From Variovorax paradoxus (GTDB lineage Bacteria; Pseudomonadota; Gammaproteobacteria; Burkholderiales; Burkholderiaceae_C), in NCBI RefSeq assembly GCF_024734665.1, contig NZ_CP102931.1, positions 5,640,001 through 5,704,000 of the forward strand: 64,000 bases of DNA, in the 5' to 3' direction. Under the pieces are notes generated by a model. The model was not told the origin of the DNA. It saw only the letters and a program-made list of their open reading frames with translations, and did not search any database. The position numbers were made by a program, and so were the translations under genes. Each line of letters begins with the position of its first letter. The stretch's first letter is position 1. This document shows, one piece after another, positions 59,916-63,176 of the stretch.

Positions 59916-61319
59916 ATGCACATTCATATTCTGGGTATCTGCGGCACGTTCATGGGTGGCGTGGCCGCCCTGGCGCGCGAGGCAGGCCACCGGGTCACGG
60001 GCTGCGACGCCGGCGTGTACCCCCCGATGAGCGACCAGCTGCGCGCCCTCGGCATCGACCTGATCGAAGGCTTCGGCGCTGACCAGCTCTCCCTGGCTCC
60101 CGACATGTTCGTGGTCGGCAACGTGGTGTCCCGCGCGCGACTGCCCGACGGGAGCCCCAAGTTCCCTCTGATGGAAGCCATCCTCGACGCCGGCAAGCCC
60201 TACACCAGCGGCCCGCAATGGCTGGCCGAGCATGTGCTGCTGGGCCGCCATGTGCTGGCCGTGGCCGGCACGCACGGCAAGACGACGACCACCTCGATGC
60301 TGGCCTGGGTGCTGGAAAAGGGCGGCAAGGCGCCCGGCTTCCTGGTGGGCGGCGTGCCGCTGGACTTCGGTGTCTCGGCCCGGCTGGGCGACGGCCCGGC
60401 CTTCGTGATCGAGGCCGACGAGTACGACACGGCCTTCTTCGACAAGCGCAGCAAGTTCGTGCACTACCGGCCGCGCACCGCCGTGCTGAACAACCTCGAG
60501 TTCGATCACGCGGACATCTTCGATGATCTTGCAGCCATCGAGCGCCAGTTTCATCACCTCGTTCGCACCGTGCCGGGCACTGGCCGGCTGGTAGTGAATG
60601 CCACTGAAGAAAGCCTGCAGCGCGTGCTGGGCCAGGGCTGCTGGAGCGAGCTCGCGCGCTTCGGCACAGGTGGTGAATGGCAGGCGCGCGGCGCGCACGA
60701 CGCCTTCGACGTGCTGCAGCGGGGCGAAGTGGTGGGCCGAGTCGAATGGGAACTCTCGGGCCTGCACAACCAGATGAACGCGCTGGCCGCCATCGCCGCG
60801 GCCGAACATGTGGGCGTAGCGCCGGCCGAGGCAGCCCGTGCGCTGGGCAGCTTCCGCAACGTGCGCCGGCGCATGGAGCTGCGCGGCACAGTCGAGCAAG
60901 GCGGCGGCGCAATCACGGTCTACGACGACTTCGCCCACCACCCGACAGCTATCCGCACCACTCTCGACGGCCTGCGCAAGAAGCTGGATGCCGCTGGCAA
61001 GAAAAGTGAGCGCATCCTCGCGGCCTTCGAGCCGCGCAGCAACACGATGAAGCTGGGCGTCATGGCGGCACAGCTGCCCTGGAGCCTGGAATCGGCCGAC
61101 CTGTCGTTCTGCCACACGGCCGGGCTCGACTGGGATGCCGCCGCGGCGCTCGCGCCGATGGGCGACCGCGCGCAGGTGGCTGGGGCCATCGAGCCGCTGG
61201 TGAAGCAGATCGTCGCAGCGGCCCAGCCGGGCGATCACATCGTCTGCATGAGCAACGGCGGCTTCGGCGGCGTGCACGACAAACTGCTTGCGGCGCTGCG
61301 CTCGGCGGCGGCATCATGA
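59916..61319 (+). CDS. mpl: UDP-N-acetylmuramate:L-alanyl-gamma-D-glutamyl-meso-diaminopimelate ligase
   Basis: A 467-residue Mur ligase of peptidoglycan recycling. It joins the recovered tripeptide to UDP-MurNAc, bypassing MurC, D and E. It begins MHIHILGICGTFMGGVAALA, has the P-loop VAGTHGKTTTTSMLAW, VIEADEYDTAFFDKRSKFVHY and VYDDFAHHPTAIRTTL, all Mpl signatures. It shares a pathway with ampD elsewhere in the window. It overlaps the cupin gene by 4 bp. Confidence 0.95.
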   Translation: MHIHILGICGTFMGGVAALAREAGHRVTGCDAGVYPPMSDQLRALGIDLIEGFGADQLSLAPDMFVVGNVVSRARLPDGSPKFPLMEAILDAGKPYTSGPQWLAEHVLLGRHVLAVAGTHGKTTTTSMLAWVLEKGGKAPGFLVGGVPLDFGVSARLGDGPAFVIEADEYDTAFFDKRSKFVHYRPRTAVLNNLEFDHADIFDDLAAIERQFHHLVRTVPGTGRLVVNATEESLQRVLGQGCWSELARFGTGGEWQARGAHDAFDVLQRGEVVGRVEWELSGLHNQMNALAAIAAAEHVGVAPAEAARALGSFRNVRRRMELRGTVEQGGGAITVYDDFAHHPTAIRTTLDGLRKKLDAAGKKSERILAAFEPRSNTMKLGVMAAQLPWSLESADLSFCHTAGLDWDAAAALAPMGDRAQVAGAIEPLVKQIVAAAQPGDHIVCMSNGGFGGVHDKLLAALRSAAAS

Positions 61320-61834
61320 CCGCCATGCCGCTCACACGCGCCCGCGAACTGATCGAGACCCTGAAGCTGCAGCCCCACCCCGAGGGCGGCTGGTACGGCG
61401 AGGTGTTCCGCTCAGCGTCGAGCGTCACGCCCGCCGACGGCCGCGCGCCGCGCAGCGCGCTGACCAGCATCTATTTCCTGCTCGAAGCGAACCAGCATTC
61501 GCGCTGGCACCGAGTGCTGTCCGATGAAGTCTGGGTGCATCTGGAAGGCGTGCCGCTCACGCTGTGGACCGGCGACGCCGCAATGCGCACGGCACCAGCC
61601 CATGTGCGGCTGGGCCCGGTCGATGCACACGGCACGCGTCCCCAGCACGTGGTGCCCGCCGGCCAGTGGCAGGCGGCCCGGCCGATCCAGGGCCACAGCT
61701 CAGGCGACTACACGCTGGTCGCCTGCATGGTCGGGCCGGGCTTCGACTTCGCCGACTTTTCGATGGTGCCGCCCGACAGCGACGAAGCTGCGTCGATGCG
61801 GCACCACTGGCCCGATCTGGCCGGAATGCTCTAG
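61316..61834 (+). CDS. DUF985 cupin-domain protein
   Basis: A 172-residue cupin. Family features are LQPHPEGGWYGEVFRS, ALTSIYFLLEANQHSRWHRV, DEVWVHLEGVPL and YTLVACMVGPGFDFADFSM. Members are of uncertain function, with a barrel that may bind metal or sugar nucleotides. It is translated in an overlap with mpl (ATGA), and its stop is 8 bp from the convergent aroG stop. Confidence 0.88.
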   Translation: MTAMPLTRARELIETLKLQPHPEGGWYGEVFRSASSVTPADGRAPRSALTSIYFLLEANQHSRWHRVLSDEVWVHLEGVPLTLWTGDAAMRTAPAHVRLGPVDAHGTRPQHVVPAGQWQAARPIQGHSSGDYTLVACMVGPGFDFADFSMVPPDSDEAASMRHHWPDLAGML

Positions 61835-61842
61835 CCCGGGCC

Positions 61843-62961
61843 TCAGCCCCGGCGCTGCTTGACCGCCTTCGAGAGCGTGTCGAGCACCTGCACCGAATCG
61901 TCCCACCCCAGGCAGGCGTCGGTAATGCTCTTGCCATATTCGAGGTCCGACAGCTGGTCCTTGCCCGGCGTGAACTTCTGGGCACCCGGCTGCAGGTGGC
62001 TTTCGACCATGACGCCGAACACGCGGTTCGAGCCGCCGGCGATCTGCGCGGCGATGTCCTTCGCCACGTCAATCTGCTTCTGGTGCTGCTTGGAGCTGTT
62101 GGCATGGCTGCAATCGACCATCAGCGTGGGCGGCAGCTTGGCGGCTTCGAGGTCCTTGCAGGCAGCTTCGACGCTGGCGGCGTCGTAGTTCGGCGCCTTG
62201 CCACCGCGCAGGATCACGTGGCAATCGCGGTTGCCGTTGGTCTGCACGATCGCGACCTGGCCGTTCTTGTGCACCGAGAGAAAGTGATGGCCGCGGGCCG
62301 CCGCCTGGATGGCATCGGTGGCGATGCGGATGTTGCCGTCGGTGCCGTTCTTGAAGCCGATGGGCGCCGACAGGCCCGAGGCCAGTTCGCGATGGACCTG
62401 GCTTTCGGTGGTGCGCGCGCCAATGGCGCCCCAGGAGATCAGGTCGCCGATGTATTGCGGCGAGATCACGTCGAGGAACTCGCTGCCCGCCGGCAGGCCG
62501 AGCCGGTTGATGTCGATCAGCAGTTGGCGCGCAATGCGCAGACCTTCGTCGATGCGGAAGCTCTCGTCGAGGTACGGGTCGTTGATAAGCCCCTTCCAGC
62601 CGACCGTCGTGCGCGGCTTCTCGAAGTACACGCGCATCACGATTTCCAGCGTGCCGGCGTATTTCTCGCGTTCGATCTTGAGGCGGCGGGCGTATTCGAG
62701 CGCAGCGGCCGGGTCGTGGATCGAGCAAGGGCCCATGATCACCAGCAGCCGGTCGTCCTTGCCGGCCATGATGTTGTGGATGTTGCGGCGGGTGCCTTCG
62801 ATCAGGGTTTCAACGGGCGTCCCGCGAATCGGGAAAAAGCGGATCAGATGTTCGGGAGGGGGCAGCACGTTGATGTCCTTGATGCGTTCGTCGTCGGTCT
62901 TGCTGGTTTTTTCGACGCTCGCATACCAGCTGTCGCTGGCCGGGGCAGTGTTCGTGCTCAT
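61843..62961 (-). CDS. aroG: 3-deoxy-7-phosphoheptulonate (DAHP) synthase, class I
   Basis: A 372-residue enzyme that condenses phosphoenolpyruvate and erythrose 4-phosphate in the first step of aromatic amino acid synthesis. Class I signatures are LLVIMGPCSIHDPAAALEYA, VYFEKPRTTVGWKGLINDP, GARTTESQVHRE, FKNGTDGNIRIA and LMVDCSHANSSK. The N-terminal extension (IKDINVLPPPEHLIRFFPI) is the regulatory part in AroF/G/H. The isoform cannot be assigned with certainty. The leader upstream carries a complete attenuator. RBS AAGGAAGC precedes ATG 62961. Confidence 0.96.
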   Translation of the reverse strand: MSTNTAPASDSWYASVEKTSKTDDERIKDINVLPPPEHLIRFFPIRGTPVETLIEGTRRNIHNIMAGKDDRLLVIMGPCSIHDPAAALEYARRLKIEREKYAGTLEIVMRVYFEKPRTTVGWKGLINDPYLDESFRIDEGLRIARQLLIDINRLGLPAGSEFLDVISPQYIGDLISWGAIGARTTESQVHRELASGLSAPIGFKNGTDGNIRIATDAIQAAARGHHFLSVHKNGQVAIVQTNGNRDCHVILRGGKAPNYDAASVEAACKDLEAAKLPPTLMVDCSHANSSKQHQKQIDVAKDIAAQIAGGSNRVFGVMVESHLQPGAQKFTPGKDQLSDLEYGKSITDACLGWDDSVQVLDTLSKAVKQRRG

Positions 62962-63005
62962 GGTTGCTTCCTTGTCTGTCGGGTTTGAGTGGATATCGCA
63001 GGGGC

Positions 63006-63043
63006 AAAAAAAAACCGCCGGGGCTCAGGGCACCGGCGGTTTT
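63006..63043 (-). terminator. attenuator terminator before aroG
   Basis: An 11-bp perfect stem, AAAACCGCCGG / CCGGCGGTTTT with an 11-nt loop, ends in nine T residues on the minus strand. It sits between the leader peptide stop and the aroG start, so it can only terminate before the structural gene. Confidence 0.9.
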
Positions 63044-63062
63044 GGGAGGGTGTTCGTTTGCT

Positions 63063-63137
63063 TTACGCGCTCGCCTCTCGTCCGCCGGAAACCGGGAACC
63101 AAAAGTAGGCAAAGAAATAAGCGCGGAGGGCGGACAT
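63063..63137 (-). CDS. aroG leader peptide (aromatic-residue-rich)
   Basis: A 24-codon frame encodes MSALRAYFFAYFWFPVSGG and ends REASA. Codons 7-14 are Tyr-Phe-Phe-Ala-Tyr-Phe-Trp-Phe: four Phe, two Tyr and one Trp in eight codons, the signature of a ribosome-stalling leader sensing charged aromatic tRNAs. The start lies 8 nt after a TACATT box (complement of 63146-63151), so the mRNA may have almost no 5' leader; no Shine-Dalgarno is visible. RNA segments overlapping codons 1-3 and 17-20 pair with each other and with the terminator arm, as attenuation requires. Confidence 0.85.
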   Translation of the reverse strand: MSALRAYFFAYFWFPVSGGREASA

Positions 63138-63145
63138 GTGCGCGA

Positions 63146-63176
63146 AATGTAGCACGGAAAGCAAAAACCCGGTCAA
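63146..63176 (-). promoter_or_regulatory. candidate promoter for the aroG leader
   Basis: On the minus strand TTGACC (63171-63176) and TACATT (63146-63151) are 19 bp apart, slightly wide. The -35 falls within the terminator of the upstream gene. Confidence 0.45.

Follow-up and report, generated by a model that had tools for sequence, protein, structure and literature searches.

Our analysis of a 64,000-nucleotide stretch of the Variovorax paradoxus genome (below, the window; the source genome measures 7.29 Mb in a single contig) indicates that aroG, the gene of a type I DAHP synthase, is very probably under ribosome-mediated transcription attenuation, with a leader message predicted to start at or near its own AUG. 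We put the probability of this reading at about 0.9. The initial annotation had placed the leader, the arms and the terminator correctly on the minus strand, and its proposal that Phe, Tyr and perhaps Trp codons attenuate aroG through a switch between an antiterminator (arms 2 and 3, or 2:3) and a terminator (arms 3 and 4, or 3:4) is supported by conservation and by pairing tests. If the reading is true, aromatic amino-acid synthesis would be under RNA control at its first step across a large group of bacteria, by an element that has no match in Rfam 15. The evidence consists of the leader, the two pairings, the spacing between codons and arms, and the fixed distance from a promoter-like box to the AUG, all read from sequences.

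The regulated gene starts with the ATG at 62961 on the minus strand and encodes a product of 372 residues, which matches Pfam DAHP_synth_1, exceeds the cut-off of NCBIfam TIGR00034 and scores just under the cut-off of the NCBIfam model PRK09261 AroG. The same genome holds a second DAHP synthase, 58% identical to AroG, and no comparable leader was found in the 330 bases upstream of it. The gene upstream of the leader stops about 60 nt before it and has a terminator-like hairpin of its own behind it, at 63186-63167. At the other side, aroG converges with a Cupin_5 (DUF985) gene (61316-61834, plus strand), with 8 bases between the ends of the two genes. Table 1 collects the features discussed here.

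Table 1. Features of the aroG attenuator region, and leuA leaders with a similar start.
Feature	Position	Strand	Basis
Weak -35-like TTGACC, spacer 19	63176-63171	-	sequence
Putative extended -10 promoter element TGCTACATT (TG 63154-63153, TACATT 63151-63146)	63146..63154	-	box consensus in relatives
Leader ORF MSALRAYFFAYFWFPVSGGREASA, 24 codons (ATG 63137-63135, TAA 63065-63063), predicted leaderless, 8 nt between -10 box and ATG	63063..63137	-	ORF list, sequence; conserved in relatives
Regulatory codons 7-14, Tyr Phe Phe Ala Tyr Phe Trp Phe	63096..63119	-	sequence; codon positions in 99 leaders
Arm 2 CCGGCGGAC, antiterminator 5' arm, within leader ORF	63080..63088	-	pairs with arm 3; compensatory changes
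GAGG, 5' strand of possible second antiterminator helix	63074..63077	-	sequence; GAGAG mostly kept in alignment A1
CCTC, 3' strand of possible second antiterminator helix	63046..63049	-	sequence; relatives by inspection
Arm 3 AAAACCGCCGG, common to antiterminator and terminator (core CCGCCGG 63039-63033)	63033..63043	-	pairing tests
Arm 4 CCGGCGGTTTT, terminator 3' arm (core CCGGCGG 63021-63015)	63011..63021	-	terminator fold; aligned pairing
U-tract of terminator	63006..63014	-	sequence
Shine-Dalgarno sequence AAGGAAG of aroG, outside the switch	62967..62973	-	sequence
aroG, type I DAHP synthase, regulated gene	61843..62961	-	ORF list; Pfam and NCBIfam matches
Leu-containing leaders before two kinds of leuA (2-isopropylmalate synthase)	G000:C1:3634327-3634460, L241/L262	-	TGTGCTACATT-ATG start and terminator-like sequence

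The leader is short and rich in codons for products of the pathway: its best 10-residue window holds 7 aromatic residues, whereas first-order Markov shuffling of the upstream DNA, repeated 2000 times, gave 6 at most, and that three times. Among relatives the C-terminus of the peptide varies with the reading frame and the position of the stop codon. The Phe-Trp-Phe codons TTTTGGTTC (63096-63104, minus strand) are identical in nucleotides, synonymous sites included, at 30 of 31 Variovorax loci, L011 being the one that differs. In Aquabacterium commune and two relatives (L087, L094, L102), His codons stand among the aromatic codons or replace some of them, as in HFWHFH.

Between leader and aroG lies a Rho-independent terminator with a folding energy of -21.2 kcal/mol (z = -5.0), which none of 200 shuffles equals. 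A simple terminator scan of the window does not list it, probably because its loop of 11 nt exceeds the limit of 8 set in the scan. We compared the arms of each organism with arms swapped between organisms, using 182 loci from which three of odd length (L108, L138 and L186) were removed, the resulting 179 being thinned to 107 leaders at 85% similarity. The own pair is better in 71 of the 107 for 2:3 (p = 2e-6) and in 101 for 3:4 (p = 1.5e-15), and no such effect is seen for 2:4 (p = 0.42) or 1:3 (p = 0.52), which served as controls.

Relatives with the leader should also show compensatory changes, a test that the initial annotation had set in advance; 2:3 passes it, while for 3:4 the pairing is kept and the core CCGCC/GGCGG is nearly invariant. 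At four loci arm 3 reads CCGTC and arm 2 GACGG, with arm 4 retaining a G-U pair. At two, CCGCT in arm 3 goes with AGCGG in arm 2; one CCGCT locus still has GGCGG, with a G-U pair. Arms 2, 3 and 4 have changed together in other families, where they read CTGGCGG, CCGCCAG and CTGGCGG (16 loci, 15 without duplicates). An A in arm 3 is accompanied by a T in arm 2 at 19 of 32 loci, against 12 of 168 where arm 3 has G, or 18 of 30 against 12 of 163 once duplicates are removed (L220 and L232 duplicate L190 and L198), counts that ignore kinship. In alignment A1, 93.4% of the 2:3 cells are paired and five are double-change cells, as many as are reached in only 2 of 500 shuffles; the count of doubly changed pairs (2, equalled in 104 of 500 shuffles) and that of pair types (496 of 500) are unexceptional. 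The 3:4 helix, largely invariant, is paired in 93.6% of cells over 50 aligned sequences.

Arm 2 falls in one reading frame of the leader at 137 loci and in a second at 34, and it is therefore the RNA rather than the peptide that is conserved there. Its exact core is missing at 11 loci, most of which appear, by eye and uncounted, to use a shifted CCGGCG:CGCCGG pairing. In the window GAGG:CCTC may lengthen the antiterminator as a second short helix, whose strands, by inspection, read CAGGA and TCCTG in L073 and some others. The tests on 2:3 and 3:4 support an antiterminator that is mutually exclusive with the terminator.

The initial annotation described four segments, the first of which, GTCCGCC (63135-63129, minus strand), was to pair with arm 2. 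The 7-bp complementarity with GGCGGAC is indeed present in the window, but the helix is absent from the window's predicted fold and is not conserved: 52.6% of its cells are paired against 51.6% in shuffles, and slid versions reach at most 50.5%. The alternative helix CGCGCUU:GAGCGCG, which is predicted for the window, is likewise not conserved when tested as a fixed helix. A duplex-only test of 1:2 in the 107 leaders finds no preference for own over swapped partners (p = 0.69), and disagrees with a comparison against shuffled 5' parts, which gives a modest difference (p = 0.0009). Nevertheless, arm 2 is sequestered more by its own 5' part than by foreign ones (P(2:3) without a ribosome 0.49 against 0.67, p = 2.9e-7) or shuffled ones (0.48 against 0.71, p = 8e-11). 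This gain is distributed over many registers, so that the 5' part is likely to act as an anti-antiterminator at no fixed position. Thus 2:3 and 3:4 stand as described and 1:2 stands only in kind, as a looser pairing between the 5' part and arm 2. The window's own fold ahead of arm 3 is no better than its shuffles (z = +0.20).

How would the position of the ribosome decide between the two structures? We used a static stall model in which RNA has been made as far as arm 3 and the ribosome is positioned by its A site. In the window P(2:3) is 0.73-1.0 with the A site at codons 6-13 and falls to 0.09 at codon 14, the same value as without a ribosome; the model predicts that stalls at codons 7-13 should antiterminate and that a stall at codon 14 should not. 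Over the 107 leaders, mean P(2:3) rises from 0.49 without a ribosome to 0.91 for stalls at aromatic codons, and the switch point lies five codons ahead of arm 2 (P(2:3) 0.95 at -5, 0.31 at -4). The aromatic codons stop where modelled stalling ceases to give antitermination: of the 696 in 99 leaders, 643 are five or more codons upstream of arm 2, 42 are at -4 and 11 beyond. The full-length RNA of the window always prefers the terminator at equilibrium, and antitermination must therefore be kinetic. Moreover, a ribosome halted at the stop codon still leaves arm 2 free in this static model (P(2:3) 0.90 in the window, mean 0.79 over the 107), so that termination under plenty would be a matter of transit timing, or of release and refolding; the refolded, ribosome-free state is weak on average, with P(2:3) at 0.49.

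What we infer for the 5' end, the stalling, the sensing and the direction of control is as follows. RNA polymerase would start at the leader AUG or within about two bases of it, and the leader would therefore be translated from the extreme 5' terminus of the mRNA, with no Shine-Dalgarno sequence. Under a shortage of charged tRNA for Phe, Tyr or, with less certainty, Trp, the ribosome would stall at codons 7-13, leaving arm 2 free ahead of it to pair with newly made arm 3. With arm 3 captured in this way, the 3:4 terminator would not form in time and aroG would be transcribed. When charged tRNA is plentiful, the ribosome would cross arm 2 and reach the stop codon; arm 2 would then be covered, or refolded with upstream RNA, and 3:4 would form and end transcription before aroG.

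The prediction for the 5' end comes from the box TGTGCTACATT, which stands 6-8 nt ahead of the ATG in 157 of 182 loci, compared with 1 of 182 after shuffling. The 182 include five exact duplicates, mostly one genome in two collections, without which the count is 153 of 177; for eight loci in which the best promoter match is followed by no start codon, the earlier start was kept. The start codon itself is ATG in 178 loci. The Shine-Dalgarno match before it is shorter than 3 nt in 139 loci, 3 nt in 39 and 4 nt in 4, so the leader has no clear Shine-Dalgarno sequence, whereas matches of at least 4 nt precede the aroG start chosen by our script in 132 of 182. A C immediately before the A of the ATG, a usual context of a transcription start site, is found in 139 of the 182. 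The box at a fixed distance, together with the missing Shine-Dalgarno sequence, leads us to predict a leaderless leader mRNA, one that would begin directly at the start codon of the peptide. This near-leaderless start, which the initial annotation had called unusual for an attenuator, turns out to be among the most conserved features of the element, and it has precedents in Sinorhizobium meliloti trpL and Corynebacterium glutamicum ilvBNC. Within the same order, leaderless mRNAs are documented in B. cenocepacia (PMC4603805) and make up 4.67% of primary start sites in C. metallidurans (PMC7563307).

It is conceivable, if unlikely, that the attenuator is the same but its promoter lies farther upstream, giving an ordinary 5' untranslated region, with TGTGCTACATT serving as a protein-binding site. 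The -35-like element is weak and poorly conserved (15 of 160 loci have TTGAC with a spacer of 19 nt), and a promoter scan of the window gave no sigma-70 site. Although 165 of the 182 loci match at least 8 of the 11 box positions, 17 fall below that; by inspection, the box is missing in some families with a more diverged leader, and none is found upstream of the leader in the f32 relatives that we opened (L224, L227, L231, L235 and L246). Against this reading speak the constant distance from box to ATG, the lack of a clear Shine-Dalgarno sequence before the leader, unlike before aroG, the C that so often precedes the ATG, and the box itself, which by inspection is retained while the upstream genes vary between relatives. 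A classical four-segment attenuator, in which GTCCGCC:GGCGGAC would be conserved as a protector and pause hairpin, we hold to be less likely again: it would accord with the complementarity in the window and with own 5' parts sequestering arm 2 best, but neither that helix nor CGCGCUU:GAGCGCG is conserved, swapped partners do as well as own ones, and the gains in sequestration are scattered over many registers.

Marginally less probable still is that the leader RNA or peptide acts chiefly in trans after termination, control of aroG being secondary. The layout is that of rnTrpL, likewise a leaderless leader that carries a terminator of its own (PMC7298713), but here the C-terminus of the peptide shifts with frame and stop position, and the element stays beside aroG (30 of 30 and 15 of 17 loci opened). 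Action in trans may be an additional role besides the control of aroG. That the hairpin is a plain terminator of the upstream gene, and the leader a chance ORF, would fit the short distance to that gene; the gene has, however, a separate terminator-like hairpin, and this reading, to which we give next to no credence, is refuted by the conservation of the leader, the swap tests, the compensatory changes and the shuffles.

How widespread is the element? We counted a leader where at least four F/Y/W fall within 10 residues ahead of aroG. Upstream regions were sampled from 30 same-genus loci (the window's own included), from 80 named GTDB contigs and from a family draw of 75 regions, taken as every second of 145 listed rows (143 of the family) plus two from the end of the list, 73 of them belonging to the family; three family genomes with only weak matches were left off that list. 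A further sample held 20 loci, 19 from other families and one from the window's family. By this measure aroG has an aromatic leader at 72 of the 73 family members in the draw, at 74 of the 80 named loci and at 29 of the 30 from the genus. No leader was found at four Polynucleobacter loci or at Cupriavidus L110, a chromosome-2 copy; L056 offers only 7 upstream bases; and L185, the second of two tandem aroG copies, lacks a leader that the first copy (L206) has. L057 has the leader, and no terminator was found in its stretch. Of 22 more loci (L206, and 21 that belong to other families of the order), 8 have both leader and terminator and 14 lack the element. The same-genus exception, L012 (genome G025), carries one additional T within the aromatic codons, which shifts the frame of the leader and could be either an error in sequencing or a natural mutation of the attenuator.

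A covariance model built from 50 leaders (R1) matched 76 of 300 genomes of the order. Where we opened its loci, an aroG homologue adjoins in 30 of 30 (the window and nine family members included) and in 15 of 17, the two misses (L243 and L244) being terminator-only matches with no aroG found nearby. Counting the window's own family, the element occurs in at least 14 families of the order (f1, f3, f4, f8, f10-f13, f20, f23, f30, f32, f40 and f44). Outside the order, R1 matched two other genomes of the class draw, both of family f61 and both beside aroG. R1 missed G055, which has a leader (L199), and absence elsewhere is therefore only a lower bound on the distribution. Judged by these sequences, the element is conserved in a large group of bacteria.

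None of the 4227 families of Rfam 15, T-boxes and riboswitches included, exceeds its gathering score in the window, where the best match (Bp2_287, on the opposite strand) reaches 13 bits against a cut-off of 70; nor did we find an earlier description of the aroG leader element in the openly readable literature. The kind of element is already known. In E. coli, the trp and pheA leaders combine aromatic codons with a mutually exclusive antiterminator and Rho-independent terminator. The aroG element shares with them the short aromatic leader and the mutually exclusive hairpins; it differs in that a clear Shine-Dalgarno sequence and a conserved 1:2 hairpin are missing, arm 2 lies within the ORF, the aromatic codons are of three kinds, and the gene serves the first shikimate step. 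The predicted leaderless start, the three kinds of aromatic codon, the placement of arm 2 within the ORF and the lack of a fixed 1:2 helix are what is new.

Similar in layout is S. meliloti rnTrpL, an attenuator RNA that begins with the start codon (ATG) of the leader ORF trpL and for which, with the peptide peTrpL, a role in trans has been reported (PMC7298713). Like trpL as described there, the aroG leader is predicted to be leaderless and has its own terminator; unlike it, trpL responds to Trp, precedes trpE(G) and belongs to an alphaproteobacterium. In C. glutamicum, a Phe-Tyr-Phe leader has been proposed before the DAHP synthase gene aroF (PMC4046766) and the ilvBNC leader is, going by the title of reference 42 in that paper, formed without a ribosome binding site; the phylum is unrelated. 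Another uORF, uORFC-13-1 upstream of Acholeplasma aroF, codes for Phe, has a terminator and likewise precedes a DAHP synthase gene; unlike the aroG element it has a ribosome binding site, and its 24 representatives come from a single genus and from environmental sequences (PMC8632094). Attenuation of E. coli aroF was hypothesised earlier (cited in PMC8632094 and PMC2659441). The aroG element raises the questions of how attenuation proceeds with a leaderless leader and no fixed pause hairpin, and how signals from three amino acids are combined in one leader, and it predicts that factors of leaderless initiation, a process reported to be resistant to kasugamycin, would influence amino-acid synthesis.

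Weaker matches of R1 suggest that the 5' layout extends beyond aroG. They include a leucine leader, MTKISLLALLALPHGRRR, before the yeast-type leuA of the source genome (E 0.026) and another in G161, MSNFSISLLLDVRHGQVW, which precedes a bacterial-type leuA (E 3.6e-5); Leu-containing leuA leaders with the TGTGCTACATT-ATG start and a terminator-like sequence also lie at L264, L266, L268, L271 and L274. In 16 genomes of the family the exact motif TGTGCTACATT-N4-11-ATG occurs at nine sites in 7 genomes, with none in the reversed control, and the nine are four aroG leaders and five leuA genes with Leu-containing leaders (three bacterial-type, two yeast-type). All sites are thus aroG or leuA leaders, yet only four of the aroG leaders are caught, which makes the motif a strong but strict marker. 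In the source genome the looser motif GTGNTANANTN{5,9}ATG is unspecific (2 matches against 6 in the reversed control), and TGTGCTANANTN{3,14}ATG gives 2 matches against 0, one of them a TetR-like gene. We see an even chance that one family-wide 5' module, TGTGCTACATT followed after 6-8 nt by AUG, opens leaderless attenuators of aroG, for Phe, Tyr and Trp, and of two kinds of leuA, for Leu. If the module is shared, the first ribosome would couple to RNA polymerase from the first nucleotides of the transcript, by leaderless initiation, and there would be no need for a paused 1:2 hairpin plus a Shine-Dalgarno site. The TetR-like regulator gene, named by eye (G000:C1:6820126-6820146, minus strand; L261/L263), was rejected as an attenuator; it has a similar box near its ATG and is apparently leaderless.
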